Below are positions 31,461 through 46,809 of a stretch of 64,000 nucleotides of DNA, one piece after another. The notes under the pieces are model-generated. The model was not told the origin of the DNA, searched no databases, and saw nothing but the letters and a program-made list of their open reading frames with translations. Location of the stretch: the NCBI RefSeq assembly GCF_001632845.1, contig NZ_CP011994.1:930001-994000 (forward strand), written 5' to 3'. A program made the translations under genes and the position numbers. Numbering within the stretch: the first letter of the stretch is position 1; each line of letters begins with the position of its first letter. The DNA is from Ectothiorhodospira sp. BSL-9. GTDB lineage: Bacteria > Pseudomonadota > Gammaproteobacteria > Ectothiorhodospirales > Ectothiorhodospiraceae.

Positions 31461-31879
31461 GGGTGTCGACGCATATTGGGTCAGTGGCGGTCGGTGCCCA
31501 AGTGTAGCAAAGCCCGGCCGCTGGGTCAGATCGGGGCCATGACGGCCGCTTACGGCCCGAAACAGCCATTAGGACGAACTGGCCCAGTGACTATTGTGGA
31601 ACGAACAGCGGACTTTCCATAAGGCCCTCCATCTCACCGAACGCCCGATCCTGAAGTGTCCTTACAGCGTCAATGATGCTCTGGAGGCGGACAAAGACGC
31701 GGGAGCCGCCGCGAGGATAGGCGGATCGCCACTTTAAGAGTCACTGAAACCCGCTTTTGGTAAGAGCGGGAGTGGACCTTCCGTCGCGCCATGCGTGTAG
31801 TTGAGCACACCATTGACCACAGGGGTCAGGCCTTGGTTTTCCCCGACTGGGGGACGAGGACTGGTACCCCCCCCCTCCG
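31461..31879. other. Intergenic region before the accessory island
   Basis: About 420 bp. The left part (to ~31600) should hold the ubiA promoter on the minus strand. The rest has only short frames with no recognisable family. A run of C residues occurs near 31866. It marks the change from the GC-rich backbone to mixed-composition DNA. Confidence 0.5.
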
Positions 31880-32119: not shown

Positions 32120-32540
32120 CGGGACACGCCCCCCCTCATATCCTGAGCCCTCGCCCACGGCCTAGAGCACAAGCGGTGTGGATACCCGTGGCTCTGGCCG
32201 CGGAAATCCTCCCAACTTCTTGCTTGGAAGGGCCGACATTTCATGGTTGAACACCATCAGGTACACTTAGCGCTGGTTGGTCGCTACTCACAGCATCCCT
32301 CGCGGGATTACTCGCCCCCTAGGGCGGTTTTCCGGTAGGGCAGACGAGGTTGGCCAAGGATTCCGGCAAACCACACAACAATCATGTAATGTGCTATGCG
32401 AACCGCTTTAGGGAACCTCTATTAATTCGATTTGCCGGAATTTCCACCCAACAAAATCAATGGGTTACTGACGGCAGCAAGCAATTAATAGAAGTCCCCT
32501 TTAATCTCTGGATCTTCTCGCTTCACGTCCCAAACAATAA
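32120..32540. other. Upstream region of the SIR2-STAND gene
   Basis: About 420 bp of non-coding sequence, more A/T-rich toward 32380-32540, presumably holding the promoter of the large gene at 32541. The last 20 bases (CACGTCCCAAACAATAA) give no strong ribosome site. No RNA gene was recognised. Confidence 0.45.
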
Positions 32541-35500
32541 ATGGCCAAATCAATGGACCTCGACCCTAGCCTCCTCGACGCCGTCAAAAAAGGAAAGGCA
32601 ATACCCATATTCGGTGCTGGCATCCTGCACGGTGCTCACTTTCCTACTGGTAAAAGCCCGTTGTTGGGAGAGGATCTCAAGATCCTCTTATCTGACCATT
32701 TCCTATCCGGTGACCACAAAAATACTTCGCTGGCTTTCGTCGCTGAACTGGCCGTAAGCCAATCCGATTTATTTACTCTACAGCGCTTTGTCGCGGATCA
32801 ATTTTCCGATATAAAACCAGCGACTTTTCATTGCGACCTAACCCGCTTCAATTGGCGAGCGCTTTTCACCACCAACTATGATCTCCTGATTGAGGAAAGC
32901 TACAAGGCAAGCGGTAATCCTCTACAGCGTTGCCAGCCGATTCTATCCAACTTCGATCCGCTTGATGAGATACGAAGAACAGACGATCGGGTCCCCCTTT
33001 ACAAACTACATGGCTGCGTAACGCGCATACGGGACGTATCACTTCCGCTGATTCTAAATATTGAGCAATATAACGACTACCTCACCAATCGAGATCGGCT
33101 TTTCACAGAGCTTTTTGAACTGGCACACGAAAACACATTGATCTTTGTCGGACACAGTCTACAAGACGCTGACATTCGCGAAATAATCAAGCGCGTTGAT
33201 CGCACGATCGGCCAAGGCCGGCCACAATATTACCTTATCAAACCGGGAGTCAAGATCTCGGAGGTCAATCTTTGGGCACAGAAACGAATAAGGGCACTCA
33301 ACGGCACTCTCGAAGACTTCGTTACGGCCCTACTCGACCAAGTACCCGAACCCCATAGAGCGCTGTCGTTCTCCACCACTCCGGATACCCACCCAATCCA
33401 ATCCAAGTTCTGCACACACAATACTCTCAGCGAAGATATCCTCTCTTTCCTTACCAATGACGTTCAATTTATTGAACAGACACTTCTAACAGGTACCGGA
33501 ACACCTCAAGAGTTCTACCGGGGCCATGGCCAAGGATGGTATCCAATATCTGAGAACCTTGATGCCCCACGCACAATCTGTCGAAAGCTTCTTGCCGATG
33601 CAATAGTTATTGCCGAAGCCAATCGAACCGATAGCGCCGATCTATTCGTCATCAAGGGTGAAGCGGGTTCCGGGAAGAGCGTTCTTTTGCGCCGACTCGC
33701 TTGGGATGCCGGAATCCACAAAAGCCGCATATGCTTTTACGTTTCCGGTCTTTCCTCAATAGACCCGGAGCGATTAGAAGAATTACACGCCAACATTCAG
33801 GAACGCTTATTTATTTTCGTCGACAACGCCGCTCAGTGCATTTGCACGATCAATCGACTAATCAAATTTGCACGCATACGGTCTCTTCCTATTACCATTA
33901 TCACTGCCGAACGGTATACAGAGTGGAACGACCGATGCTCCACACTCGATGAACTTGTTACAGCTCAGTACAAACTACCGTATCTTGGTCCTGATGAAAT
34001 TGACGCTCTTGTGACTCGTCTTGAGAAATATGATTGCCTCGGAGAGGCACTTTTGCCGTTAACGCATAAAGAAAGGGTGCAACGCTTCCAAGACGCTTTT
34101 GGCCGCCAACTTCTTGTTGCCCTGCATGAAGTTACGATGGGTCGCCCATTCGAGGATATTATCTATGACGAATACCGTTCGATTCGATCCGACCGTGCCC
34201 GATCCCTCTATCGGACCGTTTGCATTCTAAATCGACATCGCGTACCGGTTCGCGCAGGGTTGATTCACCGAGTTTTCGATATCGATTGGAATGATTTCCA
34301 GAGCCAGTTTTTAAAACCGCTAGAGAAAGTTGTTATCGCAAGTGGGCACGGGGAGCGCGACTTGCACTACGCCGCACGTCATCCGGAGATTGCGGATATT
34401 GTTTTTCAGCGCGCATACGACTCTGTCCAAGACAGATACCATGAATATGTCCGCGTGCTCAGCTTGCTAAATATTTCATACCAATCAGATCGTACTAGTT
34501 TTAGGAGTATGATTCGAGCAAAAACGATTCTAGATCTATTCCCTGACTCCACCGATGTACAAAGAATATATGACACCGTTTTGGAGTGCGTCGGCCGTGA
34601 TCCCTACGTGCTACAACAGATCGCCAACTTTGAACGGTTACGTGACAACGGTAACCTTCGAAAAGCTATTGATTTTTTAAATGAAGCAAGCAACACTGCT
34701 CCTAAGGATGGTTCAATACTCCACAGCCTCGCTACGACTTGGCGGGACCGCGCCAAAACAGAGGCGGATCCAGGCATTAGGGACCAATATCGAGCGGAGG
34801 CGAGAGCCACTCTCGAACGCCTTCTCCGCATGGATGGCCACAGCGCTTACACTGATTCCGGAATCATTGATCTCGCGATCGACGATGTCCGTGACGCTAT
34901 CGCTGATTCGGGAACAGCAGATCGCACCCTGGACCACTTGGTGCGGAACGCAGAGAAGGCCATTTCGGAAAGCAGACGGAGGTTTCCGTCTGAGGGTCAC
35001 CTTCCTGCGCTCGAAGCGACATTCGCTGAGCTTCTAGCGGACACACCCCGTGCCGTACGTGCGCTCGAGACTGCATGCGGGCAGGACCCAAGTGACCCGT
35101 TCTTGGCTATTCGCCTTTCCACTATATACCGACGACAGGGTCGGCAGCCCGAAGCTAAGTCAGTACTGGAACGAGCGCTAGACTCACGCCGGTCAGACCA
35201 TCGCCTGAACTTTTTTTATGCAGATCTACTCCGCGGCACAGACGAGGCCTCACCTAAATTATTGTCATACTATTTTCGGCGGTCATTCACACCAGGGGAT
35301 TCAAGTTATGAAGCGCAGTTCTGGTACTCACGTTTCGCCATTGAGAGCGATGACGCGACGGAGCGCAAAGCGGCTGGTATGACTTTCAGTGCGCTCCGGC
35401 GAGCAAAGGTTCCCCAAGCGGTAAAATCAAAGATTCGTGATTACCATGGCGGAGAGAATCCAATTAGACACCGGGGCCGCCTCACTGAAAAGAGGGGTGC

Positions 35501-35663
35501 CTATGGGTTTGTCAATGTACGAGATTTTGACATCACGGCATTTATTCATGAAGAAGCGTTTGATGACGGCCTGTGGGAGCTAGTCAGCCTTGGGGAGGAT
35601 CTTAAGTTCAACATTGGGTTTGCGTATACGGGCCTTGTGTGCACTAAAGTGGAGCTTGCTTAA
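32541..35663 (+). CDS. SIR2-like / STAND NTPase / helical-repeat protein with C-terminal cold-shock-like domain (candidate antiphage sensor)
   Basis: A 1040-residue protein. Residues ~15-235 form a SIR2-like NADase domain: IPIFGAGILHG, FTTNYDLLIEESY, KLHGCV with the catalytic-position His, and LIFVGHSLQDADIREI. Residues ~365-640 form a STAND-type NTPase: P-loop IKGEAGSGKSVLLRRL (~370), a Walker-B-like FIFVDNAAQ (~425) and sensor ITIITAERY. Residues ~690-930 are helical repeats of TPR type. Residues ~975-1040 resemble a cold-shock OB fold, with GAYGFVNV (RNP1-like) and ITAFIHEEA (RNP2-like). SIR2-STAND proteins (Avs5-like) degrade NAD on sensing phage; here a nucleic-acid-binding end may be the sensor. 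GC is clearly lower than in the neighbours, indicating transfer. It is a single gene with no visible partner. Confidence 0.85.
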   Translation: MAKSMDLDPSLLDAVKKGKAIPIFGAGILHGAHFPTGKSPLLGEDLKILLSDHFLSGDHKNTSLAFVAELAVSQSDLFTLQRFVADQFSDIKPATFHCDLTRFNWRALFTTNYDLLIEESYKASGNPLQRCQPILSNFDPLDEIRRTDDRVPLYKLHGCVTRIRDVSLPLILNIEQYNDYLTNRDRLFTELFELAHENTLIFVGHSLQDADIREIIKRVDRTIGQGRPQYYLIKPGVKISEVNLWAQKRIRALNGTLEDFVTALLDQVPEPHRALSFSTTPDTHPIQSKFCTHNTLSEDILSFLTNDVQFIEQTLLTGTGTPQEFYRGHGQGWYPISENLDAPRTICRKLLADAIVIAEANRTDSADLFVIKGEAGSGKSVLLRRLAWDAGIHKSRICFYVSGLSSIDPERLEELHANIQERLFIFVDNAAQCICTINRLIKFARIRSLPITIITAERYTEWNDRCSTLDELVTAQYKLPYLGPDEIDALVTRLEKYDCLGEALLPLTHKERVQRFQDAFGRQLLVALHEVTMGRPFEDIIYDEYRSIRSDRARSLYRTVCILNRHRVPVRAGLIHRVFDIDWNDFQSQFLKPLEKVVIASGHGERDLHYAARHPEIADIVFQRAYDSVQDRYHEYVRVLSLLNISYQSDRTSFRSMIRAKTILDLFPDSTDVQRIYDTVLECVGRDPYVLQQIANFERLRDNGNLRKAIDFLNEASNTAPKDGSILHSLATTWRDRAKTEADPGIRDQYRAEARATLERLLRMDGHSAYTDSGIIDLAIDDVRDAIADSGTADRTLDHLVRNAEKAISESRRRFPSEGHLPALEATFAELLADTPRAVRALETACGQDPSDPFLAIRLSTIYRRQGRQPEAKSVLERALDSRRSDHRLNFFYADLLRGTDEASPKLLSYYFRRSFTPGDSSYEAQFWYSRFAIESDDATERKAAGMTFSALRRAKVPQAVKSKIRDYHGGENPIRHRGRLTEKRGAYGFVNVRDFDITAFIHEEAFDDGLWELVSLGEDLKFNIGFAYTGLVCTKVELA

Positions 35664-35673
35664 CCAAGGTCGT

Positions 35674-36296
35674 GTTATTAACGCGGCAATCAAATAAATC
35701 ACTTGATTTCGTGTTTACTTTTGGCAAAATCAGCAACTTACCGGGAGCGCGACGGATATGAATGGTCGCCGGGTTAATAAGCGAAACTGGGAATCGATTT
35801 GCCGGCGACCGGGATTGAATCGATTCTTGAATTTCAAACCGCTGATACGACACGGTCACGTGGTATGGGCGCCGAGGGCCCAGCCCCACTCAGCGTATGC
35901 ACGTTCCCACGGCCGCCTTCAGGGCGAGCCTTTTCCCCGCGTGCAGGATTAGGGCTCGTTTTGCAGTTTTCCGGGAACGACCGCTACCCATCATTATGCG
36001 GTACTTCGACGTTATTGTCCCGGTGCCCGCTTCGGGTCGGCTAGAGTCAGCCATTGGCAGTGCTCGGCCCGGAGCGGGCACTCGAGCCCAGACCGCCTGC
36101 GGCAGCAATGGCGCGCCTACTGGGCACTGAGGAGCATATGTTGTCAAAAAACGGTTCAAATCGCGGCTCGCTCGCTTCGCTCTCACGATCTATTAACCCG
36201 GCGACCATTCATATCCGTCGCGCTCCCGGTAAGTTGCTGATTTTGCGAAAAGTAAACACGAAATCAAGTGATTTGTTTGATTGCCGCGTTAATAAC
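35674..36296. repeat. 623-bp element bounded by 106-bp near-perfect inverted repeats
   Basis: The left arm 35674-35779 and right arm 36191-36296 are reverse complements over 106 positions with two mismatches; outer ends are GTTATTAAC/GTTAATAAC. The 411-bp centre has no convincing gene and contains a GAATCGATT direct repeat and a short copy of the dispersed GGGTCGG repeat near 36030. It starts 11 bp after the SIR2-STAND stop. It could be a MITE-like non-autonomous element or an inverted duplication. No target duplication is obvious. Confidence 0.8.
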
Positions 36297-36347: not shown

Positions 36348-36896
36348 CTACAGGTCTAATACCCAGCGGGGAAGGTTTACAACCAACCTGAGGTACGCTC
36401 CAGCAATCATGTTTCTCTCCGCATCACTGCCACTGTCGAACGAGACCCCTAGCGCCTTGCCTGACAATAAAAAAGGCGTGGCCGACCAAAACCTGTCCGA
36501 AGGTGTGCCCGGGAATACCTCCTCGTTTACGGCAGGGCCTGTTTTGCACAGCTCCACAATGCTGCGCAACTCGCTGATGCTGGGCACGCGAAATGCCGAC
36601 CCCTCCTGCTCCGCGAATTCCAATGCTGCCCCCCAACTGCCCATGGAGGCGCTGCCGGCACAATCAGTGCCTGTCCAAGACATGCCCACCGGACATCTTA
36701 GCCAGAAAAGCTCGGTGGGCTCATGGTACACCATCATACCCCCCAAAACGGGTCTGAAATCGCTGGAAGGCGTGGTTTCCAGAAGGTCCGATACGCACTC
36801 GTTGGCGGCCGAAGGGATATCTGCAGCAACGCCGGTAGAGAACAAAACAAGACAGATTGTCAGGAGCCATCGCACGCGAGTTAGTCCAGGTTTCAT
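36348..36896 (-). CDS. Exported DUF1566 (Lcl-like) protein
   Basis: A 182-residue protein. The signal peptide is VRWLLTICLVLFSTGVAA. The mature part has the DUF1566 layout: FWLRCPVGMSWTGTDCAG, FRVPSISELRSIVELC, VFPGTPSDRFWSATPF. It closely resembles the C-terminal ~150 residues of the large upstream protein, so it may be a detached duplicate. ATG 36896 is chosen. A 27-bp tandem duplication (36881-36934) adds a second in-frame ATG at 36923 with the same MKPGL start. It is the last gene of a three-gene exported-protein cluster on this strand. Confidence 0.75.
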   Translation of the reverse strand: MKPGLTRVRWLLTICLVLFSTGVAADIPSAANECVSDLLETTPSSDFRPVLGGMMVYHEPTELFWLRCPVGMSWTGTDCAGSASMGSWGAALEFAEQEGSAFRVPSISELRSIVELCKTGPAVNEEVFPGTPSDRFWSATPFLLSGKALGVSFDSGSDAERNMIAGAYLRLVVNLPRWVLDL

Positions 36897-36934
36897 AATC
36901 ACGGCCCTTAGTCCAGGTTTCATAATCACGGTCC
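36881..36934. repeat. 27-bp tandem duplication covering a start codon
   Basis: Two adjacent 27-bp units (36881-36907 and 36908-36934) differ at one base. The unit is 9 codons long, so the duplication keeps frame and gives the DUF1566 protein two alternative MKPGL starts. Confidence 0.9.
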
Positions 36935-36947
36935 TTGGTCGAAAAGC

Positions 36948-39900
36948 TCAATCCGCGCCACTTACTAACCGAGCCGGGCTGGGCCAGAGACTCGATTGTG
37001 TACGGGTATAGCCCCTGTCAAGAAGGATCTCCCTCACATCTTGGTTCACGGCCCATGCATCACCGGAACGACCAGCATACGGCGACGCCGACCAGAAACG
37101 CCTAGGAACGGTATTTGGGAAGAAGTTCGCATCTACGGGCAGATTATCGCCCCCATGATGGACGATCGAAAGAAGTTCGCCCAAGGTGGGCAGGCGCCAG
37201 TCAGTCGTGCCGCAAAGGCCCTGAACGTTGACGGCCTGCACGAAGCCGGTGGTGTCGCAGGCGCTGCCCTCACAACGGCCGCCATCCTGGGTGCCGGGAT
37301 CGCCCATATTCGGTCCGGCGGGTTGATACCAAGTATAGGTGTTGTCGCGATCGCGCAGGCCGCCGTCGGTGGTCTTCACCTCCCAGATTAGCCCGGTGAC
37401 ATTGTCACGGGTGCAGGCCCACTCATTCGGGCCGCTGCCGAGCGTCGCCGAGGCTGGCAATTCGGCGCCGTCGTTCGCAATCTTGGTATAGTCGAAGCCC
37501 GCATCACCGGCGCCGACTTTCTCAAGCGTGCCCTCGCGGGCGGCGGCGTCACGGCCGAACTCGCCGTCCTGTCCAGGATAACCCGCCACCGGGCAGCCCA
37601 GGAAGTTGGCGCCGCCATCGGCGCACCAGTCGATGCCGGTGTCGTTGAGGGGGTGTGTACCGGGCAACCCTACCCCCGCTTCGGTCGGGGTGGCTGTGGC
37701 TTCATTCGAGTAGATCCGCCGGTCGCCAAATCGTCCCTCGAGCCGGAAAAAGTACTCTTGGGCATTCGCCAACCCGGAAACTAGATGCGGGGGCATGCCG
37801 ATGTCACCCTCGACGTGCTCACCGCCCTCGGAGTAACAGTTGTCCAGGTGGCTCACAGACGTCTCGGACCGACACAAGTTGTACTCATCGGCGGGAAGTG
37901 CAGGCCAGTCCAGAGTGACGCTGTGATCACCAGGCGTAGCGTCCAGAGGGAGCGCATTGACCGCCGTGACTGAGAACTCCGCCGGTACCGTCTGCCACGC
38001 GCCTTCCCCGAACGCATAGCTTAGCGATGCGCCAAATGATCCTGGATCCGCGTACGAGCCCCAGACACGTATCCGCCCATCACCCTGGTCTCGGCATACT
38101 CCAGACGCGATACAGTCCTGAACCGAAACCCGGGAAAGGAGGGCACCGTTGCCCCAGTCGATCTCCACGTACGTATCCGAGAAATCCGTTTTGGGCGCAA
38201 ACACGACCTCAAAACCACACAGACCATACTCGGTGCAGCTATCGGCATCCAGAGCCCTGATCTCAATTTCCAGGAAGATGTCAAATAATACTTCCTTGCG
38301 CTGGCCGGGGTCGGCGTTTACAAAAGTCAAGAACCAGCCATTCCAACTCTCATCGCCGTACATCTTCATGCCATCATTCGTCACGAAATCCGGCTTTGGG
38401 TCTTCACCCTCGCTGTTTCGTAATGACACAAATGCGGTAGTGCCTTCGTGGCCATCAGTTGCTTTCCTGACGCTGAGCGCTCTGCGCCCAAGGTCCCCGT
38501 GCTGATCTTCGAGACGCACTACAATAGAAGAAAGCGGCGCCAAATTCAGTGAATGCGTGACACCCGGCTCACTCGATACTGACTCCTCGCGCCCCCATGG
38601 TACAAGCCGCGGATAGATCTCACCATCAAACGTCCAATCGTCGAAATCGGACGGTTCGCTCCGATCCAGTAACCGTATGTCTTGCTTGATCTGGGTGGCG
38701 TAAGTGTAATGCTCCAGCGCGTTCGCCATCCTGTTGTCGGCACCGAACACGGATCCGAAACCACAGGAAAAGCTCGGATCGCTGATCGCATCAAGAAGAC
38801 GACCCGCGCCGTCGTCTTTCGATGAGTGTCCTGTAAAGATTTCAGCGAGGAAGTTGCGCTCATCTGAGTTTGTGGCTGTAAAATCGCAGCCATATTCGTC
38901 ATTGCCCCTCCGTTGCAGCAACTTAAAGAATGGACCGTGGTCGTACCCCCGGCTCACCACCATATTCTCCGGCACCGGCACACCGAACCCGAAGGCGTCT
39001 GCAGGCTGCGTGTTGGAAGCTAGCCCGCGATCCAAGATCCTTAGAATCCCGTAGCGAACATAGTAATTATGATGATCGTAAACTTCATCTTGAAACCAAA
39101 CTGCTGTACCTTCATACAACCATTCTCGAACCTCATCGGAAACCACGGTGCTTCTCCAATCGAAGAGAGGATACAGCCTTTCTTCGACTCGGGTTTGGGC
39201 GTGATGAAAATACTCATGAACCAAAGCGGACTTCATTCTCTGTACGGAACTCTCGCGCGCACATGTGTTAAATGCATTGAGATGTAAAACCCGGTAATTA
39301 TTAACGGGCTTCACTAGTGCCGTATACCTGCATGGATTTCTTAGCCGGCTTATATCTCTTATCTTAACTTCTATGTTGGCATCACGAGTAGAGATCAACG
39401 CGTCGGTCCATGCGTCGAACGGAAGTCCTAACGTGTTAAATTTGACCAAGGCGTCAGCAGCCCAACCCGCGACGTGATGGACACTAAAGTCAGGAGGCGG
39501 ATTGGTCCAATTGTTTTCGGAAAAATCACGTATGCGGATCTTAGCCTTGCAATCGGTGAGTCCGTCCAGCGAACACGCACCAAGCTGGCGGGGGAATTCG
39601 ACCGTACATAGCTGTAGGTCTATCCAACTCGAATCGCTTTCACACTCGATTGGGACGGTCTCTCTCCCTGCGACCGGAGTGGCCAGCCGATACCAAAATG
39701 CCCCAGAGGTGCTCTCGGCGGCGGCAGCAATCACTGCCGATATGCCTACCACCATTGGTTGTCCCGTGGCAGCAATCATTATCAGAGCCCGACCATCCTC
39801 GGTCACTCTGAGCCCATGCGTCACCGCTGTCCAGATCGGCCCTTGTGCAGCCGAAATACCAACCGGTCGTTCGTAGACGTAAAGCATGAGTTCTTCGGAA

Positions 39901-41093
39901 TAGCGTCCAGCCGGCAGTTCGACGGGCGGAAGCAGGACTCCAATGTAATCCGTCCCAATGGAGACGGGATCGATCCGGAAGAATTCTGTCAGGAGAATGT
40001 CAGTTTCCGGCGAGAAGGAATCTGGGCTGGGCACGTCGGAGGGATTGATAAGCGTGATATCCGGAATCCCGTCCGTAACTGAGGTGACATAGTCCGAAGC
40101 CGTGAAGTCCTCCGGCAAGAAAACCTCCAACCCGTCAAGCGCCAGATCAGTATCCGTAACGGTGATCCGGATTCGCCCGTCGTCAAGGACCTCGGAAGTC
40201 GTTGCCACCACGGTGGGCTGCGCAACGCGGACGGAAAACACAACCAACGATGACGTCTCGCTATCTGCGGCCGATAATTGCACAGTGAAGGTCTGCCCCG
40301 CATGTTCATCCGTGGGCGTCCATCGGAGGTGTCCAGTACGCGCGTTCACGGTCATGCCCAGCGGCGATTCAACAAGCGAGAACTCAAGGAAACCATCCCC
40401 GGAATACCGCACCCCCGGACTGAGGTCCGCGGTTGAACCGGGTAGCAGCGCACCCTCAACGACTGGAGCTGAAAGCTGGATTGGGCGATCGTCCCGCGTG
40501 AATTCGGCGGTTACCGTGCAGGCCGTGGTAACCGGAGCCGTGGTGAAGAGTGTGGCGTCGAGTGTTCCGCCACACCCGTGGACGGTGTCGATCACGTAGC
40601 CGAGGTCCGGAGTCACGCTGAAAACTGCGATGTCACCTGGACTCAACTCGTGGCTGGACGGGCTGATCGCTCCCCCCTCGCCAGCGATGGCGCTGACTGA
40701 ATAGATGCTTGGCTGGAAGGTGAACGACCACGTTAAGTCGTCCACGCCAAATCTGTGCCGGCGATCGTGCAGAATCTTAAAGGTGTCGCTGCTTGGGGCG
40801 CTGGTCCCAGTGGGGACATCGCCGAAACTGAGCGCGCCTTCCTGCACGGTCACACCCGGCGCTTCGACGCTGAGCGTGGCCGCGACATCCAGGGCATCAG
40901 CTCCGGTGTTGGTGACCTCGGCGCTGTAGGTGTACTCGAACTCGAAACGGCTGATGCGGTTAGAGGAGACGAGCTCGTAGTTCTCAATCGATAGCTCGGG
41001 CGTTGCTTGGGCAGGCACTGCAACCGTCACCAAGACGAGTGTCAGCACTGTTATCAGGGTATTCCATGCGGCGGACATGATAGAGTGCGGCAT
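36948..41093 (-). CDS. Large secreted multidomain protein with HExxH metallopeptidase-like domain and C-terminal DUF1566
   Basis: 1381 residues. A signal peptide (LITVLTLVLVTVAVPAQA) is followed by beta domains. One at ~130-205 matches the bacterial 'YSVSAIAGEGGAISP ... GCGGTL' repeat, and one at ~215-300 is a putative Ig (GMTVNARTGHLRWTPTDEHAG). Around residue 625 is ALVHEYFHHAQ, an HExxH motif, and ~30 residues on WLYEGTAVWF. The spacing HExxH ... WLxEGxA is that of gluzincins (peptidase MA-like). A fibronectin-III-like segment (~1125-1210) and a DUF1566/Lcl domain (WRLPTLGELLSIV, RFWSASPYAG) follow. ATG 41093 has GGGAG 9 nt upstream. Composition and context suggest a transferred envelope or surface factor. 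Confidence 0.78.
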   Translation of the reverse strand: MPHSIMSAAWNTLITVLTLVLVTVAVPAQATPELSIENYELVSSNRISRFEFEYTYSAEVTNTGADALDVAATLSVEAPGVTVQEGALSFGDVPTGTSAPSSDTFKILHDRRHRFGVDDLTWSFTFQPSIYSVSAIAGEGGAISPSSHELSPGDIAVFSVTPDLGYVIDTVHGCGGTLDATLFTTAPVTTACTVTAEFTRDDRPIQLSAPVVEGALLPGSTADLSPGVRYSGDGFLEFSLVESPLGMTVNARTGHLRWTPTDEHAGQTFTVQLSAADSETSSLVVFSVRVAQPTVVATTSEVLDDGRIRITVTDTDLALDGLEVFLPEDFTASDYVTSVTDGIPDITLINPSDVPSPDSFSPETDILLTEFFRIDPVSIGTDYIGVLLPPVELPAGRYSEELMLYVYERPVGISAAQGPIWTAVTHGLRVTEDGRALIMIAATGQPMVVGISAVIAAAAESTSGAFWYRLATPVAGRETVPIECESDSSWIDLQLCTVEFPRQLGACSLDGLTDCKAKIRIRDFSENNWTNPPPDFSVHHVAGWAADALVKFNTLGLPFDAWTDALISTRDANIEVKIRDISRLRNPCRYTALVKPVNNYRVLHLNAFNTCARESSVQRMKSALVHEYFHHAQTRVEERLYPLFDWRSTVVSDEVREWLYEGTAVWFQDEVYDHHNYYVRYGILRILDRGLASNTQPADAFGFGVPVPENMVVSRGYDHGPFFKLLQRRGNDEYGCDFTATNSDERNFLAEIFTGHSSKDDGAGRLLDAISDPSFSCGFGSVFGADNRMANALEHYTYATQIKQDIRLLDRSEPSDFDDWTFDGEIYPRLVPWGREESVSSEPGVTHSLNLAPLSSIVVRLEDQHGDLGRRALSVRKATDGHEGTTAFVSLRNSEGEDPKPDFVTNDGMKMYGDESWNGWFLTFVNADPGQRKEVLFDIFLEIEIRALDADSCTEYGLCGFEVVFAPKTDFSDTYVEIDWGNGALLSRVSVQDCIASGVCRDQGDGRIRVWGSYADPGSFGASLSYAFGEGAWQTVPAEFSVTAVNALPLDATPGDHSVTLDWPALPADEYNLCRSETSVSHLDNCYSEGGEHVEGDIGMPPHLVSGLANAQEYFFRLEGRFGDRRIYSNEATATPTEAGVGLPGTHPLNDTGIDWCADGGANFLGCPVAGYPGQDGEFGRDAAAREGTLEKVGAGDAGFDYTKIANDGAELPASATLGSGPNEWACTRDNVTGLIWEVKTTDGGLRDRDNTYTWYQPAGPNMGDPGTQDGGRCEGSACDTTGFVQAVNVQGLCGTTDWRLPTLGELLSIVHHGGDNLPVDANFFPNTVPRRFWSASPYAGRSGDAWAVNQDVREILLDRGYTRTQSSLWPSPARLVSGAD

Positions 41094-41148
41094 CGCCAAG
41101 GTCTCCCAGTTCCTAGTTGCAGTGTCGGAAGTACGATTCCTAATAGTG

Positions 41149-41706: not shown

Positions 41707-42176
41707 CTTAAAATCCCCCGGTTAGAGCATAAATCGCACGATCGGCGCATCCCTTTGGTCTCTCTTATGTGCATGCTCTGCGATCGTCAAGGTCCCTTTA
41801 TTTTACTTTCATCCTTGATGATGCAATCACCTTGCCATTTGACTTATTACGACAAAATTTCCCAAAAAACAGAAAGCTAATCATAAGGCTTACTGATCCA
41901 TATATGGTAAATGTAAATAAATCTGACACTCCGATATCTCGGCTAAGCCTCATTTCAGCGACGTTGCATAATTTCGGGTTATAAAAATTCGCTTGCAACG
42001 ATGGAGCACCACACCGTGGTTCGGCTGCACAGAAGGACATGCGAACGAGCGGATCATGTCTTCGGCCGGTAATCAGCTTGGTGCCACCCCGGCCCTACTG
42101 ATGCGATATAGAGGTGTCGGGCGACAGCTTCACAGCGGACTGCAGCCTCTCGCCTCATGCTGCCGAGTGTCGGCTT
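41707..42176. other. A/T-rich intergenic region with a dispersed-repeat copy
   Basis: About 470 bp. The segment 41770-41990 is strikingly A/T-rich and probably carries the promoter of the minus-strand exported-protein cluster. From ~42125 to the recombinase element there is a copy of the dispersed palindromic repeat, with AGCGGACTGCAG and later GGCTTTGGGTCG. No gene is supported. Confidence 0.5.
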
Positions 42177-42245
42177 TGGGTCGCACACCGCCATCCCTGT
42201 GGGCCCATGCTTGTGTTTCCTCCACCTCAAACGAGGAAACTGACC

Positions 42246-42875
42246 ATGAACGATTCGGAAAAGACTGCCCCACACCACCCTGCCCCGTGGAACAAGGGCA
42301 AGCTCATTGGCCAGAAGCCGCCACTCAAACTCAGAGAGATCTGGGCCCTACGCACTCGACTGGAACTGGCGGGGAAAATCCGGGAACTCGCCCTGTTCAA
42401 CCTGGCAATCGACAGCAAGCTCAGGGGCTGTGACCTGGTCCAGTTGCGGGTGAACGATGTGGCCCGTGGTGGGGAAATCCTGACCCGGGCCAGCGTGGTT
42501 CAGCAGAAGACCCATGAACCCGTCCGCTTCGAACTTACCGAGCCAACCCGAGCCGCAGTCGCGGCCTGGATCACCAAAGCCGGCCTGACGAGTGGCAGCT
42601 ACCTCTTTCCAAGCCGGAGGCAGGACTCGCCCCATCTCTCAACACGACAATACGCGCGGATCGTCAAGGGATGGGTGGGACTGATCGGAGGCAATCCACA
42701 GGAGTACGGCACCCACTCACTTCGCCGCACCAAGGCCACGCTGATCTACCGGCGAACCAAGAACCTGCGGGCGGTGCAACTCCTGCTTGGTCATCGCAAG
42801 CTGGAAAGTACCGTCCGCTACCTCGGCATCGAGGTCGATGACGCCCTGGAGATGGCCGAACGCACCGAATGCTGA
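42246..42875 (+). CDS. Small tyrosine recombinase/integrase
   Basis: A 209-residue phage-integrase-fold protein. Box I has the catalytic Arg in DSKLRGCDLVQLRVND. Box II reads THSLRRTKATLI (H-x-x-R), then LLGHRKLESTVRYLG supplies the second His and the nucleophile Tyr. The N-terminal arm is short, with no separate SAM-like core-binding domain of usual size. The start ATG has GAGGAAA upstream. A damaged twin lies 14.2 kb away, so the enzyme probably mobilises its own unit. Integron-like or inversion roles are alternatives. Confidence 0.88.
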   Translation: MNDSEKTAPHHPAPWNKGKLIGQKPPLKLREIWALRTRLELAGKIRELALFNLAIDSKLRGCDLVQLRVNDVARGGEILTRASVVQQKTHEPVRFELTEPTRAAVAAWITKAGLTSGSYLFPSRRQDSPHLSTRQYARIVKGWVGLIGGNPQEYGTHSLRRTKATLIYRRTKNLRAVQLLLGHRKLESTVRYLGIEVDDALEMAERTEC

Positions 42876-44042: not shown

Positions 44043-44444
44043 AAATGATCGGATGAGAATTTACCAAGCGAGTGTAGACAGAAAACAACCTTCCCGCCTC
44101 CTGGTCACTGTCAAAGAACACGGTGGCCAGGACCCACATCAGGCCGCATTTTAGCCGAGCGCAAGGCTTGACAGACTGGCCAAAACCCTGTTCGCAGTGT
44201 ATTATTCACGTCCTTTCCGCATTGGCCTCTCCACGGCACCCCCAGAGGACTGCCGTTGGATCACTGGATTCCGGCCACACTCGGGCATCGCTTGGGGCCA
44301 CCGCCCCCGCGCAGTAACGCCCTTACACGACCGCTTCAACCGCATGCTTCGCGGCTCCGATCATCGCAGACGGGGGCGCGTGACCTCATTTGGCAATAAT
44401 CCGGGCCCAGCCGGCAACGCATTCGCACTCATAGGACATCATCC
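44043..44444. other. Long leader/intergenic region upstream of the SulP gene
   Basis: About 400 bp. TTGACA at 44168-44173 has no well-placed -10 box; TATTAT at 44200 is 26 bp away. Otherwise the region is G/C-rich, with no recognised gene or riboswitch. A long 5' leader of the transporter mRNA is possible. Confidence 0.4.
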
Positions 44445-45938
44445 ATGAACCTCACCCGCATCAAGAAGGAATGGTTTTCCAACATACGCGGGGACATGCT
44501 CGCTGGCCTGGTGGTTGCCCTGGCCTTGATCCCGGAAGCCATTGCCTTTTCCATCATCGCGGGGGTGGACCCCAAGGTGGGGCTGTATGCCTCGTTCTGC
44601 ATCGCGGTAGTCATCGCCTTTACCGGCGGCCGGCCCGGCATGATCTCGGCGGCCACGGCAGCCATGGCCCTGCTCATGATCACGCTCGTCAAGGAACACG
44701 GGCTGGAATACCTGCTGGCGGCCACCATTCTGACCGGCGTGCTGCAGATCATCGCAGGCTATCTGCAGGTGGGGCGCTACATGCGCTTCATTTCCAACTC
44801 GGTCATGACCGGGTTCGTGAATGCCCTGGCCATATTGATCTTCCTGGCACAGCTGCCGGAGCTCACCGGCGTCACCTGGCATGTATACGCCATGACCGCC
44901 CTGGGCCTGGCCATCATCTATCTCTTCCCCTACCTGACCCGCTCCATCCCCTCGCCCCTGGTGACCATTGTCGTGCTCACCCTCTTGGCATGGCTGCTGA
45001 ACCTGGACATCCGCACGGTCAGCGACATGGGCGAACTGCCCGACACCCTGCCCGTCTTCCTGTGGCCGGACATCCCGCTGAACCTGGAAACCCTGTGGAT
45101 CATCCTGCCCTATGCCCTGGCATTGACCGTGGTGGGCCTGCTCGAGTCCATGATGACCCAGAACATCGTCGATGACCTCACCGACACCCGCACCGACAAG
45201 AACCGCGAGTGCAAGGGTCAGGGCATCTCCAATATCGTCGCCGGCAGCTTTGGTGGCATGGCAGGCTGCGCCATGATCGGGCAGTCGGTGATCAACATCA
45301 AATCCGGTGGCCGCGGGCGGTTATCCTCATTCATGGCCGGCATCTACCTGCTGGTCATGGTGGTATTCCTGACCCCGCTCCTGGGGGCCATCCCCATGGC
45401 GGCCCTGGTGGCGGTGATGATCATGGTGGCCATCGGTACCTTCAGCTGGAATTCCATCAAGAACATGAAGGACCACCCGCTGAGCACCAATATCGTCATG
45501 ATCACCACCGTAGCGGTGACCGTGTTCACCCATAACCTGGCCCTCGGCGTGCTTTCGGGCGTGTTGCTGGCGGCCCTGTTCTTCGCCAACAAGGTCAGCC
45601 AGTTCATGTTCGTGGGTGCCGACACCGACACCCGTCCGGATGAACACACCCTGCACCGCACCTATCGCGTGTATGGGCAGGTCTTCTTCGCCTCCACGGA
45701 GAAGTTCATGCAAGCCTTTAATTTCCGGGAGGATCTGGATAAGGTGACGATCGATCTGTCCCGTGCACACTTTTGGGATATCAGTTCCGTCGCCGCGCTC
45801 GACCGCGTGGTCGTCAACTTCCGACGTGAAGGTGCCGAGGTGGAAATCATCGGCATGAACGAGGCCACCGCCACCATCGTCGACCGTCACGCCGTACACG
45901 ACAAGCCCGATGCCGCTGACCGGCTCATGGGCCACTAA
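44445..45938 (+). CDS. SulP family inorganic anion transporter with STAS domain
   Basis: A 497-residue protein. The membrane part (~residues 10-390) opens with [20 protein letters not shown], the SulP signature, and contains [39 protein letters not shown] as separate blocks, and NNP-like central turns. The C-terminal STAS domain (~410-490) has [17 protein letters not shown] and [20 protein letters not shown]. It could carry sulfate or bicarbonate; the substrate cannot be told by eye. The downstream Usp gene is 19 bp away, a recurring SulP-Usp pairing in proteobacteria that suggests stress-linked control of the carrier. Confidence 0.9.
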
Positions 45939-45957
45939 CCTGCTGGAGGATGCCCCT

Positions 45958-46809
45958 ATGAACAAGGTCATTGCCTGTATTGATGGCTCGCGCTCGTCGT
46001 TATCCGTGTGTGATTACGCCGCCTGGGCCAGCCGGCGCATGGACTCGCCACTCACCCTGCTGCATGTGATCCATAATCCCCATGCCGAATCCCAGCGGGA
46101 TCTGAGCGGCAACCTCAGCCTGGGGGGCCGCGAAGCCCTGCTGGAGCAGATGGTGGAAGCCGAGGAGCAGCGCGGCAAACTGTTGCGGGAACAGGGGCGC
46201 GCCATCCTGGCCGATGCCCTGGATCGGGTGCGGGCCAACGGCGTCGCCGAGCCCGGCAGCCTGCTGCGCAATGATGGCGTCACTGCGGCCCTGGACGATA
46301 TCCAGGAGGAGGCCCGTCTGGTGGTGGTGGGCAAGCAGGGCAAGGATGGCGACATGCTCAAGCAGCATGTGGGGAGCCACCTGGAGAGCATCATCCGCAC
46401 CCTGAAGCGCGGCGTGCTGGTAGCCCCCCTGGAATACCGGGAGCCGGAGCGTTTCCTGATCGCCTACGATGGCAGCGCCACGGCGCATACCGTGGTGGAA
46501 AAGGTCTCGGAGAGCCCACTGCTCAAGGGGCTGGAGGCCCATGTTCTGATGGTGGGCGAGGACAATCAGGAAAACCGCTCACGCCTGGACAATGCCCGCG
46601 GCACGCTGGCCCAGAAAGGCTTCGATGTGCGCTCGGAGATCCGCAGCGGCGAGGTGGCGGAAGCCGTCTGCGCCTACCGCCAGGAACACGACATCCACCT
46701 GCTGGCCATGGGCGCCTACGGCCACTCCCGGCTGCGGCGCTGGTTTGTGGGCAGCACCACCACCAACATGATCATGCGGTCGCCGATTCCGCTGATTATC
46801 CTGCGGTAG
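45958..46809 (+). CDS. Universal stress protein paired with SulP transporter
   Basis: A 283-residue tandem Usp-domain protein. The N-terminal domain opens KVIACIDGSRSSLSVCDYAA. The C-terminal domain opens FLIAYDGSATAHTVVEKV and ends HLLAMGAYGHSRLRRWFVGS with TTNMIMRSPIPLIIL. The ATP-loop (G-A-Y-G-H-S-R) is intact in the second domain; in the first it reads VVVGKQGKDGDMLKQHVG, a divergent form. ATG 45958 has CTGGAGG ~8 nt upstream. It sits 19 bp after sulP and is surely co-transcribed. Confidence 0.9.
   Translation: MNKVIACIDGSRSSLSVCDYAAWASRRMDSPLTLLHVIHNPHAESQRDLSGNLSLGGREALLEQMVEAEEQRGKLLREQGRAILADALDRVRANGVAEPGSLLRNDGVTAALDDIQEEARLVVVGKQGKDGDMLKQHVGSHLESIIRTLKRGVLVAPLEYREPERFLIAYDGSATAHTVVEKVSESPLLKGLEAHVLMVGEDNQENRSRLDNARGTLAQKGFDVRSEIRSGEVAEAVCAYRQEHDIHLLAMGAYGHSRLRRWFVGSTTTNMIMRSPIPLIILR

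Follow-up and report, generated by a model that had tools for sequence, protein, structure and literature searches.

The window analysed here, a stretch of 64,000 nucleotides of the Ectothiorhodospira sp. BSL-9 genome, contains one intact open reading frame of 1040 amino acids with zero internal stops, whose product consists of an N-terminal SIR2 domain, a STAND NTPase, TPR-like helical repeats and a C-terminal cold-shock domain (CSD; Table 1). Because the homologues begin at the second methionine of the window protein (Met5, ATG at 32553), this codon may be the true translation start. The SIR2 domain starts about ten residues from the beginning of the protein, with no other N-terminal domain, and carries the motifs GAG/GSG, TTNYD (Asn112), KLHG (His157) and GHSLQD, while the NTPase carries a Walker A motif GEAGSGKS (Lys379) and a Walker B aspartate (Asp428). 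These motifs are kept family-wide, and Asn112, His157, Lys379 and Asp428 are conserved in every member covering those positions, among relatives of 25–48% identity from at least six phyla; Arg458 and Arg613–His614 of the STAND part are likewise invariant across the family. Both PF25199 and TPR_19 are matched by all 20 aligned family members and SIR2_2 by 19, the exception (L011) being a row without the N-terminus. The earlier note, made from the sequence alone, had quoted the SIR2 motifs and the P-loop and had proposed this four-part layout; all of the quoted motifs are present and conserved in the family, and the layout is borne out by Pfam for SIR2, STAND and TPR and by family profile and model for the CSD.

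Table 1. Features of the gene and its flanks, in window positions
Feature	Position	Strand	Basis or remark
97-bp dispersed repeat (MITE-like)	32405..32501		Lies 40 bp before the gene; two further copies elsewhere in the genome
SIR2-STAND-TPR-CSD protein, 1040 aa	32541..35663	+	Open reading frame, Pfam, homologue alignment; start possibly 32553
N-terminal SIR2, residues ~5–270, catalytic Asn112/His157	32553..33350	+	SIR2_2 match at residues 107–252 (Pfam, E = 2.9e-23); conserved motifs; ThsA structural match
STAND NTPase (NBD and helical/winged-helix parts), residues ~321–680	33501..34580	+	nSTAND_NTPase5 (PF25199) match at residues 323–468 (Pfam, E = 1e-26); CED-4, Avs5 and SAMD9 fold matches; conservation
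TPR-like helical repeats, residues ~681–955	34581..35405	+	TPR_14/TPR_19 match at residues 834–896 (Pfam, E = 7e-9); TPR_19 in 20/20 members; all-helical in the AlphaFold model
Cold-shock domain (OB barrel), residues 976–1040, RNP1-like AYGFV, RNP2-like AFIH	35466..35660	+	PF00313 in relatives, family profile, AlphaFold model
Left arm of a downstream inverted pair of 106-bp repeats	35674..35779		Sequence repeat
106-bp repeat, right arm of inverted pair	36191..36296		98% complementary to left arm

Inserted DNA and repeats around the gene

The G+C content is 48–53% over 32–36 kb, compared with 62–67% upstream, and homology to two related genomes stops at 31521, just past ubiA. The gene is absent from the nine other genomes of the genus and the 37 genomes of the family that were sampled, and the horizontal transfer that had been suggested from the low G+C content is upheld by these comparisons. 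A transposase relic had also been proposed next to the gene, and has indirect support from the 97-bp repeat and from the segment at 31.88–32.36 kb, of which the genome contains a second copy with 75% identity; no transposase was identified there. The other copies of the 97-bp repeat are located at genome positions 1313617 (92%) and 923189 (86%), and its ends resemble an inverted repeat (AGGGAACCTCTATTAATT...AATTAATAGAAGTCCCCTT). This MITE-like element may carry the promoter of the gene or may have disrupted it; no promoter or terminator at the locus scored above chance. Imperfectly palindromic copies of the 106-bp repeat occur at genome positions 723717, 1653991 and 1662691. No RNA family was found in 31.4–37.0 kb, and the window has no tRNA marking an integration site.

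A gene of the Phage_integrase family (42114–42872, 253 residues, E = 1e-18) lies about 6.5 kb downstream of the gene. The window copy is outside any recognizable prophage or defence island, and its neighbours encode Lcl_C-domain and PEP-CTERM-like proteins. Two adjacent Lcl_C-domain proteins are encoded at 36348–41099; the larger (1383 residues) contains Ig-like and InlB-like repeats and the gene of the smaller begins with a 27-bp tandem repeat. Further downstream, the sulfate permease and universal stress protein genes at 44400–46805 recur at genome positions 3292558–3294963 as a 2.4-kb copy with 99% identity, a recent duplication.

Domain folds and comparison with Avs5 and SAMD9

The AlphaFold model of the full protein, built on a 20-sequence alignment, has a pLDDT of 84.7 and a pTM of 0.52, so that the packing of the domains is weakly determined. 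Its best whole-protein matches in the PDB, as found by Foldseek, are EfAvs5 (E = 9.2e-25), followed by structures of human SAMD9 (E of ~1e-21). Alignment with VIA-align gives a Z score of 21.0 for EfAvs5 (747 residues aligned, global r.m.s.d. of 23 Å) and 15.7 for human SAMD9 (833 residues, r.m.s.d. of 28 Å), with residues 4–1040 of the model placed onto SAMD9 residues 391–1589. Since these r.m.s.d. values are large, the domain order and the folds are common to these proteins and the arrangement of the domains is not. For the parts taken separately, the NTPase matches CED-4 (Z = 17.0, 4.5 Å over 302 residues) and the SIR2 part matches ThsA (Z = 23.4, 2.9 Å over 255 residues), KomC (Z = 22.3) and DSR2 (Z = 21.5), which gives the N-terminal SIR2 assignment of the earlier note its structural counterpart. 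The likeness to ThsA, a shared NADase fold, is confined to the SIR2 part, and that to DSR2 also runs through SIR2 (defence sirtuins score Z = 19–23); the window protein reaches 24 bits against the DSR2 model NF041819, for which the cut-off is 1400. Assignment to a known PADLOC system was tried and rejected, the matches (ThsA, PDC-S25, LmuA and Dsr2) being mainly to the SIR2 part.

The C-terminus is a genuine Csp-type cold-shock domain, and its fold is established. Pfam does not recognize a CSD in the window protein itself; PF00313 is matched by 12 of the 20 relatives (best 9.5e-9), and a family profile of residues 955–1040 matches the structures of UNR, CspE, CspA and CspB with E values of 2e-10 to 2e-8. 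The AlphaFold model of the same residues is a five-stranded barrel (pLDDT of 91.7, pTM of 0.76) that superimposes on the CSD of YB-1 (Z = 11.9, r.m.s.d. of 1.2 Å over 69 residues) and on CspA (Z = 10.6, 1.6 Å over 66 residues); its top structural matches are CSDs, some of them solved with RNA. An OB-fold end had previously been called from two short motifs, and both the model and the profile turned out in its favour.

Judged from the predicted model, Avs5 (AVAST type 5; EfAvs5, 9jap; AVAST5 filament, 9nc9) is the nearest known protein in overall fold, likewise having an N-terminal SIR2, a central STAND NTPase and C-terminal helical repeats. However, Avs5 ends with its repeats and has no reported CSD, which the window protein adds. 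The window protein also falls below the cut-off of the NCBIfam Avs5 model NF041814 (15.7 bits against 1000) and below that of the nSTAND3 NTPase found in PaAvs5 (PF20720; 12.2 bits, cut-off 27.2), and matches PF25199 instead; nSTAND3 is matched by six of the 20 relatives at E < 0.01.

The order of all four parts is identical to that of SAMD9/SAMD9L, human and bacterial (9zjr, 9zjw; PMC5445408). The protein had been put forward as a candidate new antiphage sensor in the earlier note; its layout is not new, as SIR2, P-loop NTPase, TPR and cold-shock-like OB were already described as the SAMD9 core, bacterial members included, by Mekhedov et al. (2017; PMC5445408). SAMD9-family proteins differ in having SAM, AlbA_2 tRNase (lost in some members) or kinase domains, none of which is present in the window protein. 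Furthermore, their Walker A motif has glycine in place of lysine (GGT/S), whereas the lysine here is canonical, with GKS/T in 20 of 20 relatives, and the SIR2 domain has the full set of catalytic motifs, unlike the published description of the SAMD9 family. No SAMD9 chain appears among the listed matches of the STAND profile up to E = 10; the match to SAMD9 obtained here is a structural one. On the best reading, the family is a CSD-bearing variant of SIR2-STAND defence with a SAMD9-like architecture, and is neither Avs5 nor SAMD9 proper. No record of the CSD-bearing family as a tested defence system was found in PADLOC, NCBIfam or the open-licence papers searched.

Distribution of the family and genomic niches of its members

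About 25 relatives with the same layout are spread over at least six phyla, and genomes with full-length relatives belong to Pseudomonadota, Bacteroidota, Ignavibacteriota, Balneolota, Cyanobacteriota, Planctomycetota and Armatimonadota. A single-protein search of genome contigs returned no relative; an alignment-based search did find relatives. The gene is rare and patchy, with a relative in one of 5426 E. coli genomes and in two of 368 other genomes of the class, and prophages, satellites and plasmids are frequent carriers. Plasmid relatives comprise 14 records that cover most of the query, the carriers including conjugative and mobilizable plasmids. On viral contigs, about ten loci were found in a STAND-TPR-CSD search and six long matches in another search, and no relative was found in 50,697 phage records. 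No exchange of the effector was detected, as the STAND-TPR-CSD search gave the same SIR2-headed plasmid loci and the viral matches were mostly loci already known. A PF25199 search in the phylum gave one Avs5-like protein and other STAND-TPR proteins, none with the CSD layout.

In a tree that includes two Avs5-like relatives rather than Avs5 itself, a branch with 100/100 support splits the 25 CSD-bearing proteins from these two CSD-less proteins. The sister of the window protein in this tree comes from Zhongshania (48% identity). The two Avs5-like SIR2-STAND relatives (L116/L078 and L079; 818 and 843 residues) have NIDD in place of TTNYD. Several relatives are broken, either by frameshifts or stops or by being annotated in at least two pieces (L063, L069, L074, L104 and Klebsiella plasmids such as NZ_CP031801.1). 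Because these genes are split, their sequences suggest that the gene is costly or quickly lost.

Two relatives occupy well defined positions in mobile elements. In a P2-like prophage (L009), the gene lies between gpA (phrog_91, nicking at the origin of replication) and the portal gene gpQ (phrog_68), and in E. coli N18-04097 (L103; protein WP_097725118.1) a P4-like satellite carries it between psu (polarity suppression) and the integrase gene. Both positions are described as hotspots of anti-phage systems in the available part of Rousset et al. (2022; PMC9122126), which also describes hotspot STAND proteins that have repeats at the C-terminus and whose N-terminal effector (TIR, SIR2 or nuclease, with SIR2 named) can be swapped. 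The hotspot STAND proteins thus share the niches of these two relatives, but no CSD is described for them in that part of the paper. This location is that of L009 and L103 and not of the window copy, and the P2 and P4 hotspots carry other cargo too, so that position in a hotspot is not proof of defence. Among other relatives, three adjoin integrase genes (L010, L011 and L063). L002 has VapBC, an Abi family protein and an integrase as neighbours, L003 has type I restriction and Fic, L058 has AbiEi, L067 has a DNA methylase, and L076 has caspase and nSTAND1-WD40 genes. No recurrent partner gene was found beside family members, and the gene is therefore read as a single-gene system.

Proposed anti-phage function and the sensing domain

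An anti-phage role, which the earlier note had proposed, is very probable because the layout resembles the SAMD9 core and relatives sit in the P2 gpA–gpQ and P4 psu–int antiviral hotspots. Also in favour of defence are the conserved catalytic residues, the match of the SIR2 fold to defence NADases, the mobile and patchy distribution and the defence-gene neighbours of some relatives. By analogy with ThsA, DSR2 and Avs5, from which NADase activity, oligomerization and abortive infection are carried over, the protein is probably a single-gene, horizontally transferred anti-phage NADase of the SIR2-STAND kind. At rest, the TPR-CSD C-terminus and an ADP-bound STAND module would keep the protein inactive. 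A cue of infection would be sensed by the TPR-CSD half, upon which the NTPase would exchange ADP for ATP and oligomerize. Oligomerization would bring the SIR2 domains of the N-terminus together, so that they form an active NAD+ hydrolase, and the loss of NAD+ would stop both cell and phage.

The cue could be read by either component of the C-terminal half or by both. It is nearly an even chance that a phage protein is sensed by the TPRs, like in Avs5, the CSD being not the trigger but a structural lid, a clamp for autoinhibition or a module for docking (e.g. to ribosomes or mRNA). Both halves of the TPR region vary as much as the CSD does (mean pairwise identity of 27–31% and 27%, respectively, versus 46% for the HD/WHD part), although such variability fits sensors and also fits less constrained parts. 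The closest relative with a solved structure, Avs5, carries TPR/Sel1 repeats, lacks a reported CSD and is activated by a phage protein (PMC12931631), and activation of SAMD9 is thought to consist of release from autoinhibition by the C-terminal half (PMC13245274). By analogy with what is proposed for Avs5, the TPRs may be as good a sensor candidate as the CSD. However, a CSD is present in every complete member examined, in several phyla, and its RNP aromatics are retained, which exceeds the needs of a mere lid.

That the CSD itself is the sensor, freeing the STAND switch and the NADase when it binds single-stranded RNA or DNA that infection produces or exposes, is more doubtful. The domain has a true CSD fold, CSDs with RNA in the solved structure are among its best matches, and three RNP aromatics, which keep this idea alive, are nearly invariant despite the low mean identity: position 988 of RNP1 is Phe, Tyr or His in 26 of 26 sequences, position 990 is Phe or Tyr in 23 of 26, and the first aromatic of RNP2, at position 1001, is Phe or Tyr in 25 of 26. 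We take these positions to match the Csp residues, the correspondence being assigned by motif. Yet the RNP1 lysine and the W8-type residue (the strand 1 tryptophan) are not kept in the family and are absent from the window protein, position 1003 is histidine in only about half of the members, and the net charge of the CSD varies between −4 and +4, that of the window protein being acidic (−3). Known Avs proteins, moreover, sense phage proteins (PMC12931631). It is possible, though less likely than not, that the CSD acts as a pattern-recognition domain in which phage-derived or stress-derived single-stranded RNA or DNA gates the STAND switch and the SIR2 NADase.

It is improbable that the protein primarily defends against plasmids or competing mobile elements, or stabilizes its own element, rather than acting on phages. 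Members are carried on conjugative and mobilizable plasmids and on satellites, and SIR2 effectors in some defence systems, such as the SIR2-Argonaute system SPARSA, also act against plasmids; set against this are the lack of a recurring partner gene and the P2/P4 anti-phage hotspot positions, which favour phage defence. Least probable is that the window copy has lost its function and is a passenger in decay. It is surrounded by repeats and relics and several relatives are broken, but its own reading frame is open over the full length and every catalytic motif is intact.

The preferred reading, a SIR2-STAND anti-phage NADase, bears on SAMD9 and SAMD9L, human antiviral and disease proteins for which the trigger and the role of the OB domain are unsettled; the functions of their bacterial homologues are hard to predict according to a 2025 review (PMC13245274). 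The SIR2-STAND-TPR-CSD-like OB layout itself is already known. The family is set apart from Avs5 by the added CSD and from the description of SAMD9 by the canonical Walker A lysine, the full SIR2 motif set and the lack of AlbA_2 and kinase domains. This is a widespread prokaryotic family with the SAMD9-type core order, an apparently active SIR2, a canonical P-loop and members in anti-phage hotspots, and as a single-gene family it could tell whether a core of the SAMD9 type is antiviral machinery of ancient origin and what the CSD recognizes. Should the CSD prove to be the sensor, the family would represent a SIR2-STAND defence protein that has a SAMD9-type core and senses nucleic acid, which would point to a bacterial origin, in nucleic-acid sensing, of the OB domain of human SAMD9.
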